Of a DNA stretch of 64,000 bases, positions 4,138 through 58,505 are shown piece by piece. The DNA is from an uncultured Lachnospiraceae bacterium (GTDB taxonomy: Bacteria > Bacillota > Clostridia > Lachnospirales > Lachnospiraceae): contig CAMOWK010000007.1 of assembly GCA_946628415.1 (NCBI GenBank), forward strand, positions 62,001 to 126,000, read 5' to 3'. The first letter of the stretch is position 1; every line of letters starts with the position of its first letter. The notes beneath the pieces are model-generated. The model did not search any database. It was given only the letters and a program-made list of their open reading frames with translations, and was not told where the DNA came from. The position numbers and the translations under genes are program-made.

Positions 4138-4183
4138 CTATTTTACTATCGCAGAATCGTGCCTCCTTAGGTCAAGGTAGCGC

Positions 4184-4307
4184 CATATCTGCTTCGCATA
4201 TATGTATCCCTGCTCCGCAGGTCTATGCCCCGCTTCGCGTGGCGCGTCCTCGCTTCGCTCGGAACATGAGGTACTCCGTCACTCGCTTCGCTCGTGCCAC
4301 CTCATGT
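4184..4307. repeat. Hairpin array, locus 1 (atpG-atpD junction)
   Basis: Between atpG and atpD lie consecutive short inverted repeats, most with three-base loops: 4184-4204 (CATATCTGC / GCATATATG, loop TTC, one mismatch), 4209-4221 (CCTGC / GCAGG, loop TCC), 4227-4243 (GCCCCGC / GCGTGGC, loop TTC, one mismatch), 4247-4263 and 4280-4296 (both around the core TCGCTTCGCTC with the same symmetric 2x2 mismatch). A 9-bp outer stem, 4264-4272 with 4299-4307, encloses the last one and covers the atpG stop codon (4302-4304). The stretch is homologous to 45484-45543: the block CCTGC-N3-GCAGGTCTAT and the following two hairpins occur in the same order. On the transcribed (minus) strand most loops read GAA or GGA. 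Confidence 0.8.
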
Positions 4308-43169: not shown

Positions 43170-44138
43170 TTAATATCCAAGTTTTTTCATAACGCCCTCA
43201 ACCATGCTCTTATTTGATTCAGCACTGTAAGCAACAATTACCATGTTATCTACCCTGATGGTGTAGTAGAATTTTCCTCCATCAGTTCCCTTTGTATATT
43301 CATAGTTACCTGCATTTACACTTGAATAAATGCTTGGGCCGCTGTCATTATCAAATGCATACTTTGTGTAATAGTTTCTTGCACTGTCTTCTTCGCCAAA
43401 CTGATCGTAGGATATAAATACATTCCAGTCGGATTCAGTGCCATTTACATTATATGCATACGCCTCACCTGTGGCACCCGGCGCCATATCACCTGTCTCA
43501 ACATAAGTCGTAAGGCCTTCTCCTTCGCAGGCACTTACAAACTGATCGGACGAGATAACCGGAAGCTGCTTATTCGCAAATCGGGTTACGGCAACTATAA
43601 CTGCTATGATCCCGCCAACAATAAGAACTCCAACTACAGCAAGGATTATGAATAATGTTTTGTTGCTCTTTTTTTCAACAGAAGCCCTTCCACCATTCAT
43701 GACCACTCCCTGACTTGGATTATACGAGCCACCGGAAGGCTGACCGTAAGGGTTCCCACTTCTTCCGTATCCCTGATTTCCCATGCCGGACTGGTCGTAA
43801 GGGTTCCCACTTCTGCCAGGGCCAGGGTTCCCTTGTCCCGGACGTCCGTAAGGACCTCCCTGATTCATATTTCCCGGCTGGCCACCGTACGGATTTCCCG
43901 CTCCCGGCTGACCGCCATATGGATTTCCTGCTCCCGGCTGACCACCGTATGGATTCCCTGCTCCCGGCTGGCCGCCATACGGATTCCCTGTTCCCGGCTG
44001 GCCGCCATATGGATTCCCTGCTCCCGGCTGGCCGCCGTACGGATTCCCTGCTCCCGGCTGACCGCCGTACGGATTCCCTGTTCCCGGCTGACCATAGGGA
44101 TTATTCTGATTGTAAGGATTCTGACCATCGTAACTCAT
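43170..44138 (-). CDS. GQPG-repeat membrane protein with extracytoplasmic domain
   Basis: The 322-residue protein has an N-terminal region of Gly, Gln, Pro, Asn and Tyr, with seven tandem copies of GQPGxGNPYG (residues 16-85) and degenerate copies to about 145. A basic stretch, one membrane helix (about 160-186) and a C-terminal domain of about 135 residues (DQFVSACEGEGLTTY to MKKLGY) follow. Topology should place the repeats inside and the C-domain outside. The C-domain is unrecognised. SD GGAGG. Between cysE and pyk, probably co-transcribed. Role unknown. Confidence 0.75.
   Translation of the reverse strand: MSYDGQNPYNQNNPYGQPGTGNPYGGQPGAGNPYGGQPGAGNPYGGQPGTGNPYGGQPGAGNPYGGQPGAGNPYGGQPGAGNPYGGQPGNMNQGGPYGRPGQGNPGPGRSGNPYDQSGMGNQGYGRSGNPYGQPSGGSYNPSQGVVMNGGRASVEKKSNKTLFIILAVVGVLIVGGIIAVIVAVTRFANKQLPVISSDQFVSACEGEGLTTYVETGDMAPGATGEAYAYNVNGTESDWNVFISYDQFGEEDSARNYYTKYAFDNDSGPSIYSSVNAGNYEYTKGTDGGKFYYTIRVDNMVIVAYSAESNKSMVEGVMKKLGY
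43884..44093. repeat. 30-bp coding minisatellite, seven copies
   Basis: Seven in-frame 30-base units encode GQPGAGNPYG or GQPGTGNPYG, with few synonymous differences. The near-identity suggests recent expansion. Confidence 0.95.
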
Positions 44139-44221: not shown

Positions 44222-45160
44222 CTAGATCACATAATCGAAATAATCTACACCATACTGATACTCCTTACCCTTCAGCCTAAGCTCCTGATTCTTAAGGCTT
44301 ACCCTTGTCTCAGGCGCAACCGAAAATGTAATGAAGCAGTTACCACCGATAACAGAGTCATGCCCTATCACAGTCTCGCCGCCGAGTATCGATGCATTTG
44401 AATAAATAGTTACATTATCCTCAATAGTAGGGTGTCTCTTTTCCCCCTTAAGATGCTGTCCGCCCTTTGTGGAAAGAGCGCCTATCGTAACGCCCTGATA
44501 AATCTTAACATGTTCTCCTATGATCGACGTCTCACCTACAACAACGCCTGTTCCATGATCTATCATAAGATATTTCCCAAGGGTTGCTCCCGGATGAATA
44601 TCAATACCTGTCCTGCTGTGTGCATATTCAGTCATGATCCTCGGGATGAGCGGCACCTCGAGAAGGTAAAGCTCATGCGCCATACGATTTATGGTTGTAG
44701 CGAGAAGCCCCGGATATGAAATGACTATATCCTGTTTATCATATGATGCCGGATCCCCATCATAAGTCGCCTGTATATCAGTATTCACATACTCCCTTAT
44801 CATAGGGATTCGGTTAAAGAAAGCCGTTGTTATCTCATCAGCCTTAGGACGAAGCAGCTCTTCTTTTTCATCGGTAAAATCAGGTCTGTGCCGGAGCGCC
44901 ACCTCTATCTGCTTTGACAGATTATAAAATGTATCTTCGATGAGGATTGATAATCTGAATTCGTTATTACAGCTTTTATAAACCTTTTCCTGATAATAAC
45001 CGGGAAAAAGAATATGGATCAGCTTACGGGTAACGCTTCTTACCTCATCTTTGTCAGGCTGTCCGTGGATATCCATCTCATCGATATCCCTGCCTTTTTC
45101 ATAATCACTGAGGATTTCATTTACTATCTTTTTAATATCATTATTTGTTTTTCCAGTCAT
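44222..45160 (-). CDS. cysE: Serine O-acetyltransferase
   Basis: The 312-residue protein has an N-terminal helical part and a C-terminal left-handed beta-helix with hexapeptide repeats: IDIHPGATLGKYLMIDHGTG, VVVGETSIIGEHVKIYQGVT. The catalytic Asp-His region (MIDHGTG) is present. It makes O-acetylserine for cysteine synthesis. It is of the longer, EpsC-like type common in Clostridia. SD AGAGG. The likely promoter comes from the adjacent repeat array. Confidence 0.95.
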   Translation of the reverse strand: MTGKTNNDIKKIVNEILSDYEKGRDIDEMDIHGQPDKDEVRSVTRKLIHILFPGYYQEKVYKSCNNEFRLSILIEDTFYNLSKQIEVALRHRPDFTDEKEELLRPKADEITTAFFNRIPMIREYVNTDIQATYDGDPASYDKQDIVISYPGLLATTINRMAHELYLLEVPLIPRIMTEYAHSRTGIDIHPGATLGKYLMIDHGTGVVVGETSIIGEHVKIYQGVTIGALSTKGGQHLKGEKRHPTIEDNVTIYSNASILGGETVIGHDSVIGGNCFITFSVAPETRVSLKNQELRLKGKEYQYGVDYFDYVI

Positions 45161-45192
45161 ATCAGACCTCTTCTATTATATTCATTTTGCAT

Positions 45193-45580
45193 CGTGAATC
45201 ATGCCTATTATATCACAGTACCGAGATTCGCATCAGCGAATCCGGGACGTTGCAGGCTGGTTTCGAAGAAACCAGTCCGACGACAGGAGGATACAATGTG
45301 CGTTTCATATACGCACATGATTCACTCCGTGAATCATGCCTATTGTACCACAGTACCGAGATTCGCATCAGCGAATCCGGGACGTTACAGGCTGGTTTCG
45401 AAGAAACCAGTCCGACGACAGGAGGATACAATGTGCGTTTCATATACGCACATTCTGGTGCCATATGTGCAATGCACATATGATATCCCTGCTTCGCAGG
45501 TCTATATTACGCTCCGCGTAATGCATACTCGCTGCGCTCGCACATGATTCACTCCGTGAATCATGCCTATTGTACCACAG
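45193..45580. repeat. Hairpin array, locus 2 (two 135-bp units plus a third partial copy)
   Basis: The 421-base gap between cysE and mazF is filled by this array. Unit 1 (45193-45327) and unit 2 (from 45328) are near-identical 135-base direct repeats; the first 26 bases recur at 45555-45580. Each unit holds hairpins GATTCGC/GCGAATC (45225-45242), CTGGTTTC/GAAACCAG with loop GAA (45257-45275), ATGTGCGT/ACGCACAT (45296-45318) and CATGATTCAC/GTGAATCATG with loop TCC (45316-45338). Between unit 2 and the third copy lie CATATGTGC/GCACATATG (45462-45482), CCTGC/GCAGG (45488-45500) and ATTACGC/GCGTAAT (45506-45522). The latter part is homologous to locus 1. No protein is credible here. Confidence 0.9.
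45207..45212 (-). promoter_or_regulatory. Extended -10 within repeat unit 1, probable cysE promoter
   Basis: The cysE-proximal copy reads TGATATAAT on the minus strand, a perfect extended -10, about 50 bases before the cysE ATG. The equivalent site in unit 2 and in the partial third copy is TGGTACAAT. No good -35 is visible. Confidence 0.5.
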
Positions 45581-45581
45581 T

Positions 45582-45893
45582 TTAGTCGTACTCGAAAATA
45601 CCTTGAATGACATCCGATATATTCATAACATCCGCATATGATAAATAGTCTATCTTGTTACATCCCCTTGATATAGGATCAATCAGTTTTATCTGTTCAC
45701 ACAAAACTATTCCCGTTTCACCATTTTTACCTGCCACAAGAATATGAATGGGACCATCTTGGATTCCGTCGAGCATAGGGCATACGTGGAACATTCCTGT
45801 TGCCCTTATAAATGCATTTTTACTGACTACAAGAAACCGTTGTTTTTTAAAGCCATTTATTTTGATTATATCCCCCTGACATAATTCCATCAT
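45582..45893 (-). CDS. MazF/PemK-type toxin
   Basis: The 103-residue protein begins MMELCQGDIIKINGF, with KKQRFLVVSKNAF and TGIVLCEQIKLIDP, the pattern of MazF/PemK endoribonucleases. It overlaps the antitoxin stop in ATGA, the usual toxin-antitoxin coupling. The frame extends ten codons upstream into the antitoxin, but the ATG at 45893 with GGGAG upstream is preferred. MazF toxins cut mRNA at short sites; the recognition sequence cannot be predicted. Confidence 0.8.
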   Translation of the reverse strand: MMELCQGDIIKINGFKKQRFLVVSKNAFIRATGMFHVCPMLDGIQDGPIHILVAGKNGETGIVLCEQIKLIDPISRGCNKIDYLSYADVMNISDVIQGIFEYD

Positions 45894-46132
45894 AAAATTT
45901 CTCTCCCAACAGGTTCTCCCCAATCAAATTCAGAAACCGATATTTCTCCTCCATATTCTGCAAGCCTCTCCTCAAAAGTTTTATGGGTGAACTTTTTTCT
46001 GAGTACAATTGCATCTTTTTCAATTTCAATTTCCAGAATGTCAGAAGTTTTTAATTTCATTTTATTTAAAATATCCTTTGGAATTCTGATGCCCTGACTA
46101 TTTCCCCATGTTCTTATTGCAACTTGTTCCAT
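45890..46132 (-). CDS. MazE/AbrB-type antitoxin
   Basis: The 80-residue protein has the swapped-hairpin AbrB DNA-binding fold (VAIRTWGNSQGIRIPKDIL, then LEIEIEKDAIVLRKK) and an acidic C-terminal tail (YGGEISVSEFDWGEP) that would mask the toxin. AAAGGAGGG precedes the ATG. A 12-bp palindrome and a TATAAT lie upstream, suggesting autorepression. Confidence 0.88.
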   Translation of the reverse strand: MEQVAIRTWGNSQGIRIPKDILNKMKLKTSDILEIEIEKDAIVLRKKFTHKTFEERLAEYGGEISVSEFDWGEPVGREIL

Positions 46133-46238: not shown

Positions 46239-49200
46239 TTATTCTCTGCTTAACTGTCTCAACCGTCTTGTCCTGAAAATGATTCCAAGACAGAGTGCTA
46301 TACCAAGAATAAGCAGTGATATGAATCCCATATAGATTCCGGTCGGAATGATTGCATCTTTCGTATTGGTGAAATTAAGAACCGTATTACCGTTTACGGA
46401 TATGGTATCTCCATTTGCAAATTCTGTCGGAGTATTGCCGGTGCTATCTGCCGGGTCACTGCCACTGCCTGACGGGCCCTCATTTCCACTTACAGGATTT
46501 GTTACAGTATATTCAGCCGATGCCGTATAGCCAAGCATAGTATAGTCATTCTCTCTTACCATAACCTTGGTTCCTGCCGGAAGATTAAGGAATGAATATG
46601 TCTCGCCGTGGGCAAGATCGATTCTCATTGTACCACTGTCGAGTAGAAGCGTAACCGGATCAAGAGGCACGCCGTCAACAGTTTTCTGAACCCTGTATCC
46701 ATCTCCCGTAAGCGGTTTACCTGTACTGTCATAAAGATCAACAAGGAAGCTGAATACTTTTTCCTTATTACCGAATTTACCGTCAACAGTCTTTGTAATA
46801 GTAAATGACTTTGTATCCGCGCTTTTATTTGTGATAGCCGCATCAAGAGTATTGCATTTTGAATCGCTTGTATCCGTAAATACAGCAAAGCTTATCACTC
46901 TGTCGTCATAATCCTTAAGGGTTTCCTGCGTATATCCTGCAGTCGGAATAACTGTATATCCTGCAACAGGGTCTTCACTTATAAAATAGTCATATCTTAA
47001 ATTTGTATCATTATTTTCATATCTTGGAAGATCTTCTACTACAGCTGTCCATGTACCGTCAGCATTTTCCGTAAAATCATACTTGTTTAGCTGAACAGTC
47101 TTTACCGCAACCTTTGTATCCTGAGCTACCCCTGCTCTGATATTAAATGTTTTCCTTCCGACATAAACAGTAAGTGTTTCAGGAAGAAGCGCCTGATTCG
47201 TAACAGGATTTCCATCCTTATCTACCCAATTCTTAGTGATAGTAAGCTGTAACTTATTCGGATCAGGTTTCTGGACTGTCTTTTTATTCGTGTAGACAAT
47301 GCTGTCATTATCCGAAAGAACTCCGTTATACAGTGCTGCTTCCACCGCTTCGTCCGAGTTAGCCTCGTAGCTTACTTCATACTTTGTTTCAGTATCAGTG
47401 GTATCAGGTGTGTATGTTTCTTCAACTGAGTAAAGTGCTCCCATAGGGAGATCCGTAAATACTATCTTCTCTATAGCCTTAATCTTAAGATTTCCGTCAC
47501 TTCCTAAACTTGCCTTTCCTTCTTCGTCAGATGTAAATGTACGGGCTGACCCGTCTACAATATCACCTGTCAATGTCTCTATATGATAATTATAGGTAGC
47601 TCCGGCATTCAGATTAGAGAAGCTAAAGCTGTAAGGGAACTCTGTAGCTACCCATGCAGCAAGATCTGTGTCATTAAGAGGGTCAGGAATCTGTACCGGC
47701 TCAGCGTCGCCGTATTTCTTATACAGAAGTGCCAGTTTTCTGACTGTAAGAGTCTTTGTAATGACTTTATTACTTACATTTACAAGGGAAGGAGTTATAC
47801 TTCCCGGGTTTCCGGCAACAATTGTTCCGGTGCTTTCAGTAGTTCCACCGGTAATACTATCAAACTCATAGCCTTCAGGCATCGGATGATCTGTATCCGC
47901 CGGATCCGTCACCTCTGAAACAATATACTTACATTCATCAGGAAGACCGGAAATTGCAGTTGTTTCACCCGGAATCACTTTAAAGTAACCTACACCATAG
48001 TTATCAATACCTGAAACTTCAGCAAATGGCGCATATGTATAAGCCGATCCATCAGAATTCTGCATAAGAACCTTTACCCAGAAAGCAGCACCGTCAGCTC
48101 GCTTTCCAAGAGAAGTTCCGTTTTCATCAGTCAGCGCTTTAGTAATGTCAAGCTCACCAACCGGTCCCTGGGAATTGGTAATTACAGGCGTTTCTCCCGA
48201 ACCTACTCTCGTAGGATTATCCCAAAGAGCAGTCGAATTATATCCTGCCACTTCATCTTCCCATGCAAAGAATTCTTCCTCAGCATCAAATACACTGACT
48301 TTAAGCTCCCACTGGGAAGTACCGTTTCTATCAACCTTAGTCCAGACAGCCTTCTTCTTAGTGCCCGGATTATACTTATAGACAGTCTTCTTTCTCTTTG
48401 GAGTTCCGTTATCATCAATTATTTCATCAACCGTAAGATAAACATCTTCATCTACTTCGTAACCTGTTTCACCCGAAACTTCTACCTCTGTTCCTTCTGT
48501 TCCTGTAACATATTCAAAAGTAAATGACCTGTTTCCTATATCATCAGCAGTAAGTGTTGAATCCTCCTCGGCATCATACTCATGATATGTTCCGAAATTC
48601 TCCGGAAGCCTGAGTGATGTATCTCCGCCACCAGATGAAGACGAACCACTTCCCGAGCCCCCATCATGAGTTTCTCCAGGGAAGGTGAAATTTCTGTAGA
48701 AATCAGAATTTGCATCGTTGAAGTAGCCTGCTCTTGGTCTAAGTGATCCTTCCATATATGTGTACTGATCAAGTGTTTCTTCAGCCTGAATAGTAAAGTG
48801 CCGCGGATCTCCTTCACCGCCATATTCAGCAATAATGTTTTTATTATTGTTATTCCAGCATGGAGTACCATATAGATTTATTCTGAAATAGTTATCATTA
48901 TCCTTATTTGCAGCAGCTCCACTGCCAATCTCCCATTTACCCTTTGCAAAAACAGCACATCCATTTCTATATCCCGAGCCTTTGTCTTTACCCGCACATA
49001 CATGATTAAATACTGCATAAACATCATTAAGATTTGTGCTTGTCTCAAAATTAGAAAGATCTATATATTCAAGGTGATAACATCTATTAAACCAACTACG
49101 AATAGTAGTAAGATTAGGACAGTTTCTAAACCCTCTTAGGTCTATCCCCTGAAGTGCCTGACAGTCAATAAACATACCTTCAACTGTCGTAAGCTTATCC

Positions 49201-52200
49201 CCTGCCGTAAATTTTGAGGGATCAATCTTGATTACCTCGAGCAGTTTACAATTATTAAACATATTCGCCATGGTTGTAACGTTGGCAGTCTCAAGATTTC
49301 TAAGGTCAAGAAATGTAAGTTTAGTACAACCACTAAACATAGAAGACATATTCGTTGTCTTACTGCTAGTAAACGGTCTTAGATCAAGTTTTGTGAGATT
49401 TGTACATCCGTTAAAGAGATTACTTGAATCAATCGGAAGATTAACAACTTCTGCATCACTCCACCATTTAAGAGTATCGACTTCTACCCATGCATAGAAA
49501 TGTCCCTTTTCGCCATTCTGTTCTCTCCATGCGGAATATGCACTATCTGTTTCCAGCGCTTCTGCTGTTACACCTGCCGGCAGCTCGCTCGCCTTTTCCA
49601 TTTTCTTTATTGCTGTTTTGCTCTGGCTGATAGCAGTTTTAAATGCATTTCCTATAGTAACCGTCTTTGTCTCTGCAAGAGGTTTCTCCGTACTTAGGTG
49701 CATGGAAGGAAAGCCCTCAGGCATAGGTGTTCCAACCCAGGACTTAATAGCCAACTTTGTTTCATTAAACTCTTCATCATTTAAGATTCTGTAGGATTCG
49801 GCATCCTCTTCATTGGCAACTCTGACGAATCTGCCATTCTCAAATTTTATAAATTCAACGCCCTTTGACGTGCCGTCTTTATCCTTAAGTGTATAGGAAT
49901 ATCCCGTACCATCATCCTTTTTTGTAATGGTAAGTATGTAATAATCTGAGAGCTTGGAATATTTATCAGGCACCACTTCTTCTGTCAGGCGGTAAGTACC
50001 CGCAACGAGTCCACCGAAGTAGTATTCACCATCCGGTCCTACATTTCCTTTTGTAAGTGTCTTCTTATAACCGCTCTCTGCGTCTACAACCCAGCCACCT
50101 GTACCGCTGCTGATGCTGCTGTCATTTGCTATTACTGCGGCAATAGCATTTTTCGTTGCTTCACCCTCCGTCACAAGCGTAAATGTAGCATTATTAAGGC
50201 CGCTGCCTGTAATACTGTCTACCTTTCTAATATCTATACCTGCATAAGGAGTATTATAGATCACAGAATTTATATTATCGACATCATCTGCACTGTCTCC
50301 TTCTCCGACAATCTCAACAAGGGCAGACCCATTTGCGCCTTCCCTGATCCAGACTTTATATGTACTTTCAGCAGGCATATATCCTTCCTTAGTCTTAGTT
50401 TCTTTTAGAATGTAAGGCTGGGAGGATGACATTTCAAGATCAGTAAAACGAACTACGCCGCTCACATCACTTTCAGCTTCTACGTCCTTATACTCTCTGT
50501 TGTACGCAGATGTTCCGTTTAAAGTAAATCTAACTCCGGAAATTGCTTCGCCTGTATATTTATCTCTCTTAGTAAACTCAAGATCTGTATGAATACGCGG
50601 TACATTTTCTATAACATAGTGAGTTATTATCGAGTCATCTACAAACTCATATTTGCCTGTACTCTGATCATAAAGAATTGCATTTCCCGATATATCGGTT
50701 GTTGCTGTATGTCCGTCAAAATCATCAATCGTAACTATCATCGTATTTCCGGAAGGAGTAACACTTACCCTTCTCGGAGTTGAGTCGAGAAGATGATCAT
50801 TTCCTGCATCCTCTTCAGTGAGAGTATATGTACCCTTCTCAAGTCCGGAGTAGTAAACTCTTCCGTGATCATCGGACTCAAGTTCTTCATCAACAACAGT
50901 ACCATAATCGGATGTACCCGAAAGACGGAAGACTGTTCCGGAAACTCCTGCCTTTGTGGACGCATCAGCCTTCGAAAAGCTGAGTTCACCTGTCGTCTTA
51001 AAATCTACTTCCGTATAGTCATAATGGGTATAGAAGTATACACTTTCCCCGTCTTCACCATTTTCTTTAATATTTGTGTTAGTAAATGATCTGTAGATAT
51101 TATTGAAGGTCTTCGGCGGAATCTCATATCCTGTAGTCGGATCCGTATGAGGTATCGGAATCTTATCCGGCGCTGTCATCTTTACAGTAAATGAAATGCT
51201 CTCCGAATCACCCAGTGTATATTCCTTTCTTAAGTACACTATAAGTGCAGTTACCTTGCTGAGATCCACATTATCATTTTCAGGATTTCTCCAGTCAGAA
51301 ACACGAACCCATCCATTGTACGGAGTTCCCGGCTCCTGACTAAGTATTCCATTAAGAAACGCTTTTCTTTCAGATGCATCTGAGTAGTTAGTATCATCCT
51401 CAAGGTTAACTATATCATCTCCCACATAAAGGAAGAGATATGGCGTGAAGGATGAATCCTGAACCTTCATCTTTGCCTCAATGCCGGACAGGTCAACTCC
51501 CTTAAATGTACCCTTCCAGTCACGTATAAAGCTTTCTCCTGCCGAATTGTATCTTGTTCCTTCAGCACCTTCTGTTCCGGCAACGTACATATAATTCTCA
51601 AGAGAATCAAGTATCGCTATATCCCTCGCTCTTGTTCCCTGGGAATTCTTCATACGTATAGTGTATGTATAGTCTTCGCCCTGATGAACGGTTGCATTGT
51701 GCCCCGGCGATACATTTTCATTTGATGATACCTTCTTATATACACCCGAAGCACTCTGAATAAGCGCAAGTATATTGACATTCGCTGACTCGTAGATAAA
51801 TCTTTTTGCATCACCGTTGTCCGGATCAAGCCCTATCATATGGTCACGGTCAGCGAAGAATTTATTACCGCCGTCATCCGGGAAACCGTTGCCTATATTC
51901 TCATTTCCCGTCTGATAGGCAACAGTATTTACAGCTATGTAACCGTAATCCTGAAGATCATCATGGGTATGAACTGTCACATATTTAAGCTCATATTTAA
52001 CATCACAAGGAGAATTGATCTCTACTTTAAGGAGCTTCTTGCCCGACTCATCATAGTTATCAATTCTTGGATAAACGGTATAAGACGCAGGTGGAAGAAC
52101 CTTCTCTACTACACGTCCGCTGCTGTCATAGTTATAAGCAGTAACTGTAAGTGACTTAGGAATAATATCGCAGTGCGCAGGAAGTAAGTCATAGAAAGTT

Positions 52201-54968
52201 CCGCTTTCCTGACGCACATATTCCGTATTTGAATTTCCGCCCTGTCCTGTTACAGTCTCACTTACTTCTGTTTTCCATGCAACTGTATATTGCTGATTAA
52301 GAGTGTCATTTCCTGAAGAATACTGCTTGCCGTCATTTCCTGTAATGATGGTATCCTCATCAAGGGCCTTCTTATTTATGGACGATGATTTTATAGCCTG
52401 GGCTATATAATCGGTTCCCTGCATCTCGATCTTCGCAGAATCTTTAGTTTCATTTTTATTTTTTACCTTCCAGACCGCATCATTTCTGACGCCGGCTTTC
52501 ATAACATCTTCATCGGTAAGTGCAGTAATAAAGTTTGAAACTGCTTCTGACGGAAGAAGTGTCACGGAAGGTGTTGCTTTAAGCTGTACATAGTAATATT
52601 TGTTCTCAGTTACGATCTTATAGCCAAGAACTGTATTCGGAACAAATGTTACTTTCTTTTCATCGATCGAAGATACGACGTCACTGTCTATTATATTTCC
52701 CTTACTAGTATCAAGATTATACGTGGCAACAAGCTTTTCAGTTCCGTCACTCAGCTTTGCATAAATATTCAGGATATCCTCTTCTTCTGTCTCATCAAAG
52801 CTCGTTATCGACTTCGAGATATATGCCATTGAATCCTTATCATACTCAACAGCAGCAGCCTTATACTCATATTCAACGCTGTCGAAATAGTAGTCACCCG
52901 ACTCAAGTTTCAGCTGGGTTTCAGGATCTGCAGGAGTACGATAATCAATAAGGGTAACTGAATTATCTTCAAGAGTATATGTAACGTCTACCTTGTTATA
53001 CTGCTCACTCAGCTTAAGAGCCGCTATCTGCTTCAGTCTGAGAAGACTCACTGTGTGATCGTCAGTTACAGTCGAAGCCGCAGCACTTCCTTCTTTAAGC
53101 GTATATTCATTTGCCGCCATATTCTCATCATGAGAATATACAGTATCACCTATAGTAACGGAATATGAAGTCCCATTATCCTGAATCTGCATATCCCTTA
53201 TTTCGCTGTTAACATCATTAACGGTCTTAGGGAAGGCATATGCTTCTGAATTAACAAGATAGAGAAGATTTCTCAGATTTTTGCCTTCTGTAAGGTTATC
53301 CATATTGAAGGACGATACATTTCCCGGTCCGCCTACTATACTTCTTCCTGAGCCGTAGAGTCCATACTTTTTAGATGTATAATTTTCAACAGGCGGAACA
53401 TAATTCGGATCATTTAATTCGTACTTCCAAAGCCCGTTACTCGACTTAACAGTCTCTTTATCTACATAATTATCTGAATCATCCTTATCTGCAGGCTGAA
53501 CAGCCGTGGAAACACTGTTGGTCGCCTGATATATACCGCTTCTAGGCGCAGCCCAAAGCGCGTCAATTCCTTCATTTCCTTCCTTAGGAAATGCTGTGAT
53601 AATATAATCCGTTCTGTTGCCCGAATTAAGGATTCCCTCGATGGTATCGGTCTTTCCGGCTGTATAGGCAGAATTTCCGGCAAGCTTTACAGCTATGACA
53701 TTTCCCGTAATCGTATGATTATTCCCATCTGCATCTTCACCTGTAAGTACTACAGGACCCGGATCGTTTATACTGAAATTATATCTTTCAGTTACATTTA
53801 CAACCTTCGACAGAGCTGACCAGACTACATAGTAATGATCTTCGTCAAGGCTAAGTCCATCAAGAGTCGACGCATTTGATACGTATGACCTAAGTTCAGA
53901 AAGGCTCATAACAGTTGAAGCTACTTTCTTCTCCACAGATTCAAGCTTTGCACCTGTATTGATATGAACCGGAATCTGATTGGAGGACGTATAAATGTAT
54001 CCGGTACTGGAAGGATCCTCAATCTTCATAGTTTTAAAATCAACGTATGCCCTGAACGGGTCAGATTCCCCGAGATCCCTGTACTCATATGATTTCTGAG
54101 TTGTCTTATATGCTACAGGAAGTTCATACACTTCACCTGCAGATATAGGCTTGATATTCTGGATGACATAGTAAGTCTGTCCGTTTATTTCTTTCGTTGA
54201 ATAGGCAAAATTATTGCCTGTTACGTATTCTATATTCCCACTTGCGTCGGTCTTTTTCTCGATAAGGTTTATATCAGGAACCGAAAGTTCAAGAGTATCA
54301 CCGTATCTTCCGCCTTCACCGACTTTGCTTTGTCCATTAAGCTTAAGTATGTGTGCAGGAATGTATATATTGACATCGCCCGGCTGAACAACCTCATGAC
54401 TTCCTGCAGTACTACCTACACCTGAAAGGCTGAGCTTTATGTCATATACAAATTTATGACCGCTGTTCTGTGTGTCGGCAGTCCATACATATGCCCCCGG
54501 CTTTTGGGATCCGCCACTAAAATTTGTCCCGCCTGAGTCTTTAAGGCCTGAAGACATAAGCGGATCTTCACTTAGCATGTCATTATCATGATAACCGCTC
54601 GAATAAAACTCAGCTCCCGTCCTGAGCGAAACCGCAAAAAGATTGATCTTATGCGCAGCCTGACCCTCCGGTATGAGCATATCGCTTACGTTAGCAGATG
54701 AGTTATTTAAAAGTGCCTCTACAGGTCTTTCTGCCCCGGCACCAAGCGACATCATAGGAGCCTTCTTTAAGGTAAAAGTAGTTTCCGGTGCATTTATCTC
54801 CGCATCATCAGTGCCACTTTCTGCATCACCGTCGCTGGCAACTTCTTCCCCGTTTCCTTCTGCGAGGGCAGGAGCAGCCGCCGGCATATAGATAGAAAGA
54901 ATAAGCACTAATGCCATAAGAATGCAAAGTACACTCTTTATTCTGTTTTTAACCCTGGTATTTTTCAT
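46239..54968 (-). CDS. Giant sortase-anchored pilus adhesin (2909 residues)
   Basis: A signal peptide (1-36, cleavage after ALA) opens the protein, followed by a long N-terminal surface region. SpaA/Cna-B-like domains are visible at about 1325 (ELSFSKADASTKAGVSG), 1458 (LEFTKRDKYTGEAISG) and 1573 (IDIRKVDSITGSGLNN). A DUF285/BspA-like leucine-rich block lies at about 1845-1990 (NLFNGCTNLTKLDL, SSMFSGCTKLTFLDLRNL, ANMFNNCKLL). More Cna-B-like domains occur near 2275, 2405, 2573 and 2723. It ends with IIPTG (2873-2877), a membrane helix and a basic tail, a sorting signal shared with the major pilin. It is the last gene of the pilus operon, probably the tip or shaft adhesin. Ligand unknown. Confidence 0.85.
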   Translation of the reverse strand: MKNTRVKNRIKSVLCILMALVLILSIYMPAAAPALAEGNGEEVASDGDAESGTDDAEINAPETTFTLKKAPMMSLGAGAERPVEALLNNSSANVSDMLIPEGQAAHKINLFAVSLRTGAEFYSSGYHDNDMLSEDPLMSSGLKDSGGTNFSGGSQKPGAYVWTADTQNSGHKFVYDIKLSLSGVGSTAGSHEVVQPGDVNIYIPAHILKLNGQSKVGEGGRYGDTLELSVPDINLIEKKTDASGNIEYVTGNNFAYSTKEINGQTYYVIQNIKPISAGEVYELPVAYKTTQKSYEYRDLGESDPFRAYVDFKTMKIEDPSSTGYIYTSSNQIPVHINTGAKLESVEKKVASTVMSLSELRSYVSNASTLDGLSLDEDHYYVVWSALSKVVNVTERYNFSINDPGPVVLTGEDADGNNHTITGNVIAVKLAGNSAYTAGKTDTIEGILNSGNRTDYIITAFPKEGNEGIDALWAAPRSGIYQATNSVSTAVQPADKDDSDNYVDKETVKSSNGLWKYELNDPNYVPPVENYTSKKYGLYGSGRSIVGGPGNVSSFNMDNLTEGKNLRNLLYLVNSEAYAFPKTVNDVNSEIRDMQIQDNGTSYSVTIGDTVYSHDENMAANEYTLKEGSAAASTVTDDHTVSLLRLKQIAALKLSEQYNKVDVTYTLEDNSVTLIDYRTPADPETQLKLESGDYYFDSVEYEYKAAAVEYDKDSMAYISKSITSFDETEEEDILNIYAKLSDGTEKLVATYNLDTSKGNIIDSDVVSSIDEKKVTFVPNTVLGYKIVTENKYYYVQLKATPSVTLLPSEAVSNFITALTDEDVMKAGVRNDAVWKVKNKNETKDSAKIEMQGTDYIAQAIKSSSINKKALDEDTIITGNDGKQYSSGNDTLNQQYTVAWKTEVSETVTGQGGNSNTEYVRQESGTFYDLLPAHCDIIPKSLTVTAYNYDSSGRVVEKVLPPASYTVYPRIDNYDESGKKLLKVEINSPCDVKYELKYVTVHTHDDLQDYGYIAVNTVAYQTGNENIGNGFPDDGGNKFFADRDHMIGLDPDNGDAKRFIYESANVNILALIQSASGVYKKVSSNENVSPGHNATVHQGEDYTYTIRMKNSQGTRARDIAILDSLENYMYVAGTEGAEGTRYNSAGESFIRDWKGTFKGVDLSGIEAKMKVQDSSFTPYLFLYVGDDIVNLEDDTNYSDASERKAFLNGILSQEPGTPYNGWVRVSDWRNPENDNVDLSKVTALIVYLRKEYTLGDSESISFTVKMTAPDKIPIPHTDPTTGYEIPPKTFNNIYRSFTNTNIKENGEDGESVYFYTHYDYTEVDFKTTGELSFSKADASTKAGVSGTVFRLSGTSDYGTVVDEELESDDHGRVYYSGLEKGTYTLTEEDAGNDHLLDSTPRRVSVTPSGNTMIVTIDDFDGHTATTDISGNAILYDQSTGKYEFVDDSIITHYVIENVPRIHTDLEFTKRDKYTGEAISGVRFTLNGTSAYNREYKDVEAESDVSGVVRFTDLEMSSSQPYILKETKTKEGYMPAESTYKVWIREGANGSALVEIVGEGDSADDVDNINSVIYNTPYAGIDIRKVDSITGSGLNNATFTLVTEGEATKNAIAAVIANDSSISSGTGGWVVDAESGYKKTLTKGNVGPDGEYYFGGLVAGTYRLTEEVVPDKYSKLSDYYILTITKKDDGTGYSYTLKDKDGTSKGVEFIKFENGRFVRVANEEDAESYRILNDEEFNETKLAIKSWVGTPMPEGFPSMHLSTEKPLAETKTVTIGNAFKTAISQSKTAIKKMEKASELPAGVTAEALETDSAYSAWREQNGEKGHFYAWVEVDTLKWWSDAEVVNLPIDSSNLFNGCTNLTKLDLRPFTSSKTTNMSSMFSGCTKLTFLDLRNLETANVTTMANMFNNCKLLEVIKIDPSKFTAGDKLTTVEGMFIDCQALQGIDLRGFRNCPNLTTIRSWFNRCYHLEYIDLSNFETSTNLNDVYAVFNHVCAGKDKGSGYRNGCAVFAKGKWEIGSGAAANKDNDNYFRINLYGTPCWNNNNKNIIAEYGGEGDPRHFTIQAEETLDQYTYMEGSLRPRAGYFNDANSDFYRNFTFPGETHDGGSGSGSSSSGGGDTSLRLPENFGTYHEYDAEEDSTLTADDIGNRSFTFEYVTGTEGTEVEVSGETGYEVDEDVYLTVDEIIDDNGTPKRKKTVYKYNPGTKKKAVWTKVDRNGTSQWELKVSVFDAEEEFFAWEDEVAGYNSTALWDNPTRVGSGETPVITNSQGPVGELDITKALTDENGTSLGKRADGAAFWVKVLMQNSDGSAYTYAPFAEVSGIDNYGVGYFKVIPGETTAISGLPDECKYIVSEVTDPADTDHPMPEGYEFDSITGGTTESTGTIVAGNPGSITPSLVNVSNKVITKTLTVRKLALLYKKYGDAEPVQIPDPLNDTDLAAWVATEFPYSFSFSNLNAGATYNYHIETLTGDIVDGSARTFTSDEEGKASLGSDGNLKIKAIEKIVFTDLPMGALYSVEETYTPDTTDTETKYEVSYEANSDEAVEAALYNGVLSDNDSIVYTNKKTVQKPDPNKLQLTITKNWVDKDGNPVTNQALLPETLTVYVGRKTFNIRAGVAQDTKVAVKTVQLNKYDFTENADGTWTAVVEDLPRYENNDTNLRYDYFISEDPVAGYTVIPTAGYTQETLKDYDDRVISFAVFTDTSDSKCNTLDAAITNKSADTKSFTITKTVDGKFGNKEKVFSFLVDLYDSTGKPLTGDGYRVQKTVDGVPLDPVTLLLDSGTMRIDLAHGETYSFLNLPAGTKVMVRENDYTMLGYTASAEYTVTNPVSGNEGPSGSGSDPADSTGNTPTEFANGDTISVNGNTVLNFTNTKDAIIPTGIYMGFISLLILGIALCLGIIFRTRRLRQLSRE

Positions 54969-58340: not shown

Positions 58341-58473
58341 AGGTAGGTATTCGAACACATTAGGTGTTCGGATACCGTACTGGCCTAGCTCCGAAGGAGC
58401 TACCCGTAGGGTTATCGAACGGCTATCCTTTGCCGTTCGATAAGGTATAGGTATTCGAACACATCCGGTGTTC
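58341..58473. repeat. Hairpin array, locus 3 (leader of the pilus operon)
   Basis: Four inverted repeats lie in the 5' leader of the pilus transcript: 58346-58376 (13-bp stem with one G-T, 5-base loop), 58386-58402 (TAGCTCC / GGAGCTA, loop GAA), 58413-58442 (11-bp stem TATCGAACGGC, 8-base loop) and 58457-58473 (GAACAC / GTGTTC). A direct repeat of about 26 bases (AGGTATTCGAACACAT and on) begins both ends of the array. The organisation resembles loci 1 and 2; the sequence does not. The rest of 58361-58601 holds the promoter and no gene. Confidence 0.75.
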
Positions 58474-58505
58474 ATTTACATTTACCGACACTAATCTAGT
58501 ATATT

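Follow-up and report, generated by a model that had tools for sequence, protein, structure and literature searches.

Two dispersed repeat families, A and B, one nested in the other, make up the hairpin array that lies between the cysE-like and mazF-like genes. Family A is mobile and was dispersed by insertion without target duplication. We favor, with a probability of roughly 0.55, the reading that the array consists of non-autonomous elements that travel as a folded DNA single strand by an HUH/Y1-like route, in the style of REP or IS200/IS605 elements. Since loops are conserved and stems free across genera, empty sites are mapped and a target rule is known, structure-led transposition becomes directly testable. 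The family also explains a class of intercistronic hairpin arrays in rumen and gut bacteria that might otherwise be taken for terminators or regulators. To our knowledge, few structured mobile repeats have been described from Clostridia, and our literature search for such repeats in Lachnospiraceae found none described.

Composition of the array

The array fills most of the gap at 45161-45581 of the window (the whole stretch of 64,000 nucleotides analyzed), and Pfam confirmed both flanking genes as the preliminary description had named them. The features are as follows.

44222..45160, minus: cysE-like serine O-acetyltransferase gene (Pfam Hexapep above cut-off, SATase_N just below)
45193..45218, no strand assigned: left remnant, the 3′ arm of the last family B hairpin plus a TACCACA-type junction (family D2, 67% copy)
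45219..45318, plus: family A (4HP, subfamily F1) unit 1, 98% identical to unit 2, with other copies in the genome; hairpins H1 45225-45242 (loop ATCA), H2 45257-45275 (loop GAA), H2b region 45276-45291, H3 45296-45318 (loop TTCATAT)
45316..45343, minus: last family B hairpin, CATGATTCAC-TCC-GTGAATCATG (minus-strand GGA loop), between units 1 and 2
45344..45454, plus: family A (4HP, F1) unit 2, matched by covariance model R2 at 45353-45461 (E 7.6e-7; model E-values are rough); hairpins H1 45360-45377, H2 45392-45410, H2b 45411-45426, H3 45430-45454
45455..45570, minus: family B (F3), sitting as an insertion within the unit 2 tail of family A, with a match to model R3 and compensatory changes; hairpins 45462-45482, 45488-45500 (GAA on minus), 45506-45522 (GGA), 45528-45540 (GCA, tandem G.A), 45543-45565 (GGA)
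45571..45581, plus: displaced family A tail GTACCACAGTT, which runs up to the mazF-like gene's stop codon
45582..45923, minus: MazF/PemK-like toxin gene (Pfam PemK_toxin)
45890-46132: MazE-like antitoxin gene (Pfam MazE_antitoxin)

Farther out on the minus strand, 43170-44138 encodes a protein with many GNPYGGQPGA repeats followed by a membrane segment, and 46239-54968 encodes a surface-type protein of 2909 aa, in which a scan of the C-terminal 1253 aa gave DUF7601, DUF285 and LRR-like domains.

The preliminary description had read the gap as consecutive perfect hairpins arranged in two 135-bp direct repeats and a third partial copy. Ten perfect hairpins (stem of at least 7, loops of 3-7 nt) are present at 45225-45565, far above the chance rate: mononucleotide shuffles of the 389-bp array gave a mean of 0.12 such hairpins and a maximum of 2. 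The direct repeats are likewise real, comprising 45193-45318 and 45328-45453 at a spacing of 135, with 126 matching nt and 98% identity. What had been taken for a third partial copy is a separate repeat family (45455-45570), whose last 43 bp are also present where the 135-bp units join. Folding was far better than that of dinucleotide shuffles on both strands, for DNA and RNA alike, with z scores of -10.6 and -10.9 for single-stranded DNA and -9.6 and -8.1 for RNA; 0 of 100 shuffles folded as well. A CRISPR array was ruled out, since the units repeat in full (98% identity) and unique spacers are absent.

Family B interrupts the tail of family A in the window: H3 ends in ..ACGCACATT, family B follows, and then comes GTACCACAG. 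At another locus (L004), a pure F1 tandem with a period of 109, the tail directly follows H3 and the family B hairpin is missing. The GTACCACA end of the array's displaced tail lies directly 3′ of H3 both there and at L003. Unit 1 retains solely the last family B hairpin, which accounts for 26 extra bases and thus for the 135-bp period (109 + 26; unit about 110 bp). We propose that insertion of family B into the family A tail, followed by partial deletion and tandem duplication, may have generated this period. Nesting of B in A was also found in another species (L288). A search for an orthologous empty site at the array's own locus found none.

Conserved loops on variable stems

The family A unit is about 104-112 bp long and contains four hairpins whose loops and linkers are conserved and whose stems are free to vary. 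The 5′ part reads TA/GG-H1 (7-14 bp; loop ATCA, ATCAA or ATCAG)-CCGTAC..RCC, where the slash marks the insertion point. The middle consists of H2 (7 bp, loop GNA) and H2b (YCC..GNA..GGR), the latter with tandem G.A pairs in some copies (CCCGAACGAAGTGAGGG), and the 3′ part is H3 (12 bp; loop 7-8 nt and pyrimidine-rich, e.g. YATCCTTT)-AAGG-tail. A pseudoknot between the H3 loop and the tail was dropped by inspection, as it fits some copies and not those of F2 or genome G002.

The preliminary description had named uniqueness of the array to its locus as a ground for refutation; copies are instead dispersed in this genome and across the genus. Full or partial matches to the 135-bp unit number about a dozen in this genome of 2.26 Mb. 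The F2 104-bp unit occurs about 15 times, with up to three copies in tandem, although the sample is mostly metagenome-assembled genomes, in which tandem copy numbers may be collapsed. The window itself holds a second family A copy (58346..58480, plus), an F2 104-bp unit followed by the H1 hairpin of the next unit. Some contigs end inside repeats (L006/L027, L028), as expected for recent repeats. A DNA search of relatives with the 139-nt unit gave matches in this genome only; structure models were needed because the stems diverge beyond the reach of DNA search. The first covariance model, built from 12 F2 copies, matched in 11 of the 61 genus genomes with up to 26 matches in one, some of them weak palindrome echoes; low-scoring reverse-strand matches of this kind were left out. 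Model R2 was built from 41 copies, none of them from the present array and none of type F1, and it recovered the array units (45353-45461) as well as L003, L004 and L007. Since R2 finds the array without having been built on F1, the F1 (135-bp) and F2 units constitute one family.

Family A extends to four further genera of the same bacterial family and is absent from most sister species. One carrier locus is identical to that of Lachnospiraceae bacterium YSB2008, and another carrier's to that of Eubacterium sp. RGIG4867; these two were also the only true matches in collection scans with the H3 core, the rest being isolated chance hairpins. Rfam 15 gave no match up to E 1 for the array and eight other loci.

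Covariation analysis of the 41 copies showed compensatory change at 30 of the 35 pairs, with 97.9% of cells paired and a score of 0.63 compared with 0.18 for shuffled and <=0.10 for slid-structure controls, figures that are inflated because the alignment was fitted to the structure. The 12-copy alignment, made without structure fitting, already contained six doubly changed pairs.

The loops had been likened in the preliminary description to GNA minihairpins. Triloops of GAA and GGA (TTC, TCC) closed by C-G are indeed present, whereas the loops of H1 (ATCA) and H3 (7 nt) are not of the GNA type. For H2 and H2b the reading gained statistical support: of the 107 triloops in 82 distinct copies, 97 are GNA (GAA 82, GCA 8, GTA 6, GGA 1) and 104 have a C-G closing pair, compared with GNA in 5 of 73 background triloop hairpins of the window. 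These loops match the DNA GNA minihairpin, a C-G-closed GNA triloop with any middle base, and d(GCGNAGC) oligonucleotides of this type have an established, unusual thermal stability. In addition, G.T pairs exceed A.C pairs in family A by 27 to 3. The two results together indicate that the GNA-bearing strand is the strand whose fold is kept. The GNA triloop is a DNA optimum, and RNA would favor GNRA or UNCG tetraloops; mainly for this reason we prefer a DNA fold, and the loop type suggests single-stranded DNA rather than RNA as the folded form.

Family B consists of successive GNA hairpins whose fold lies on the minus strand in the array, and two of them carry tandem G.A mismatches. Compensatory change was found at seven pairs over eight copies. 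The 45455-45570 block has about 20 related places in this genome (E<1e-4), and model R3 gave matches in 37 of 41 genus genomes, with 30 in this genome. At other loci, relatives lack the family B insertion, with divergence blurring its exact ends. A second copy in the window (4176..4303, minus, model R3), the site of which is empty in relatives, lies beside genes that we take, by inspection, to be ATP synthase genes. No autonomous element was found between inverted family B pairs, where tRNA genes or small ORFs lie. At L280 (genome G005), two inverted family B copies enclose a tRNA gene cluster.

Insertion sites and their targets

Empty sites demonstrate the mobility of family A. At L055, six sister species read CCGGTATGT-TATA-CTCAG, while this genome has a clean 104-bp insertion. 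The possibility that the repeats are immobile and grew as local palindromes by template switching during replication would suit the perfect stems and the internal deletions between repeats that are common at hairpins. That insertion, the dispersal to unrelated loci, and the linkers and loops conserved across genera leave this explanation scarcely credible, and immobility of family A is refuted by the empty sites.

The remaining empty-site pairs define the target. L104 reads TATA[GG..CAGGTTGA]GGTTT where a relative has TATA/GATTT, and L105 and L185 agree with it: insertion after TA, before G, with no duplication. The left dinucleotide is TA at 46 of 58 sites, giving the target YTA/G, and the inserted element carries its own 4-nt right tail (TATA, CAGA, TTGA etc.). 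The first base after the tail is G at 29 of 58 sites (p 9e-7).

The preliminary description had suggested looking for target-site duplication, which would be the mark of ordinary MITEs, whose duplex ends are cut by a DDE transposase with duplication of TATA (or TA). TATA flanks both sides of the L055 insertion and occurs once in the empty site, which can alternatively be read as a 4-bp duplication, so that L055 alone is ambiguous; the left and right 4-mers also agree at 14 of 58 sites. The 4-mers mismatch, however, at the other 44 of 58, the L104, L105 and L185 pairs fit no duplication, and neither flank comparison nor empty sites yield a consistent duplication length. Moreover, the ends GG...AAGG form no inverted-repeat pair, and conservation of internal loops is not expected of a MITE. 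We therefore consider this alternative quite unlikely. Apparent repeats of 7-11 bp at L103 and F1 loci, examined as a fixed-length duplication, proved to reflect a target similar in sequence to the junction of the element itself.

With a tail that in many copies is TATA with a G after it, the right end may serve as a further target, which would account for head-to-tail arrays. In the proposed mechanism, a TATA tail and the following G would re-create TA/G, new copies would land head-to-tail, and arrays would grow by re-insertion. Units of different stem type occur within one array at L096. At the family A site of YSB2008 (L238, G000:C1:241180-241750), the sequence in this genome is AAGGTATAG-TATTT-AGGTATAG, resembling a small excision footprint or what is left after an internal deletion.

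The target also brings the element into stop codons. Its first G completes the TAG stop of the upstream gene at 21 of 73 non-redundant sites, compared with 15.6 expected for insertion at any TA of the gap (p 0.014); at sites with at least two TA, 15 stop-codon insertions compare with about 6.5 expected (count from the same table). These comparisons indicate that stop-codon insertion is mainly target choice and tolerance with some real enrichment. At L117, the ribosomal protein L21 gene of relatives (named by inspection) ends in TAA at the place of insertion, so the L21 protein is unchanged. Stop-codon insertion offers a mobile element a simple way of entering operons without doing harm.

With genes around the copies taken from simple ORF calls, 37 copies are in sense and 12 in antisense orientation (p 5e-4), and many copies in apparent operons begin at one gene's stop codon and reach nearly to the following gene. 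Such a sense bias counts against our main reading, as selection in mRNA could explain it as well as replication could. The folds may have been selected as RNA, namely as intercistronic or 3′-UTR elements serving mRNA stability, processing or translational insulation, with spread being secondary, as in bcr and ERIC repeats. Besides the bias and the filled operon gaps, the excess of G.T over A.C on the sense strand and RNA fold z scores of -8 to -10 agree with this. About a quarter of the tandem-gene sites are antisense, however, including most F1/F2 copies of this genome; copies are near-identical within a genome while stems are free between genomes, which points to bursts of copying; the triloops are of the stable DNA type rather than GNRA or UNCG; and the lack of an Rfam match and the absence from most sister species also count against a selected RNA. 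Consequently, we regard selection as RNA as unlikely.

Candidate mechanism and comparison with known elements

HUH-type transposition is the likeliest mechanism because it predicts free stems, kept loops, one folded strand and a fixed orientation, and because the left-flank target and lack of duplication are also as predicted. One strand of family A would fold into four hairpins with loops ATCA(R), GNA, GNA and a 7-8-nt pyrimidine-rich sequence, and an enzyme acting in trans would move this folded single strand. The element would insert in one orientation after TA (YTA/G) without target duplication, and an excised circle would carry the junction AAGGTATA/GG. The array may also influence mazEF-cysE expression.

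Our search for such an enzyme in this genome found no RAYT gene and no intact Y1 transposase gene, only one degraded Y1 fragment; no Y1 transposase was detected in three other carriers (G036, G017, G278), whereas carriers G436, G020 and G340 possess an intact Y1 protein. No family A copy lies within about 1.5 kb of the 17 RAYT-size loci of the genus or beside IS200/IS605 loci, and the Y1 loci of the genus have different ends and no model match. A resident RAYT or Y1 partner was therefore rejected, there being no association in the genus or the carriers. The enzyme could since have disappeared, could come from mobile elements, or could belong to the host. Retroposition, in which a trans-acting reverse transcriptase copies folded RNA into nicked DNA in a SINE-like manner, would also produce a sense bias, a folded strand and insertion without duplication. 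A reverse transcriptase domain is absent from six of the eleven carriers searched, this genome included, which makes RNA-mediated copying less likely, and the GNA loops favor DNA; we consider retroposition very improbable.

RAYT-size genes at L135 and L138 are flanked by different palindromes of their own (e.g. GGGACGGTTCTG..CAGAACCGTCCC), apparently undescribed REP-like families.

Family A resembles the REP/BIME repeats associated with RAYT (GTAG superfamily; Di Nocera 2013, PMC3733652), which are short intergenic hairpin repeats, clustered and mostly downstream of genes, whose stems vary while structure holds and which are thought to move as single-stranded DNA. It differs from them in having four linked hairpins per 104-112-bp unit, in conserving loops rather than a tag, and in having no RAYT gene beside its copies; the consensus ends TA/GG and AAGG(TATA) contain no GTAG (or CGTC) hairpin-foot tag. 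The families surveyed in PMC3733652 are from other phyla, and "Firmicutes" and "Clostridi" do not occur in its text. Family A works like a REP-type element, a likeness of behavior, and REP/BIME and bcr repeats are the kinds closest to it. With PATE-type elements derived from IS200/IS605, family A shares the absence of target duplication, a left flank that is the target, a fixed orientation and hairpins near the ends. As in IS200/IS605, the element lands 3′ of a short fixed target that is not duplicated (TA at 46/58; L104, L105, L185). Unlike PATE-type elements, it has extra internal conserved hairpins, no intact Y1 in this genome, and ends that differ from those of the genus's IS200/IS605 copies.

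ERIC, RUP and Correia-type elements, which insert at TA, duplicate it and have long TIR palindromes, are similar to family A as small structured repeats near genes. Family A has neither duplication nor TIR, and accordingly lacks both the target duplication and the terminal inverted repeats of DDE-type MITEs. The bcr1-bcr3 repeats of the Bacillus cereus group (PMC3446304) are comparable as MITE-like mobile Gram-positive repeats of about 100-150 bp in UTRs and operon gaps, and related bcr families have conserved secondary structure (PMC3446304). Family A is, by inspection, unrelated to them in sequence and is distinguished by extensive compensatory change across species and genera and by GNA loops.

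More tentatively, family A might represent a new class of gene-less Lachnospiraceae elements, recognized by the conserved loops and linkers of a single strand with four hairpins and not by end sequence. Its enzyme would then be something other than RAYT or the TnpA of IS200/IS605, perhaps one of the host's own, with TA/G steering insertions into TAG stops without protein change.

We also observed palindromic TTTACCAAGGGGACAGCCCC repeats adjoining a family A copy (L061, G000:C10 about 83250-83500), and similar motifs recur in other intergenic gaps.
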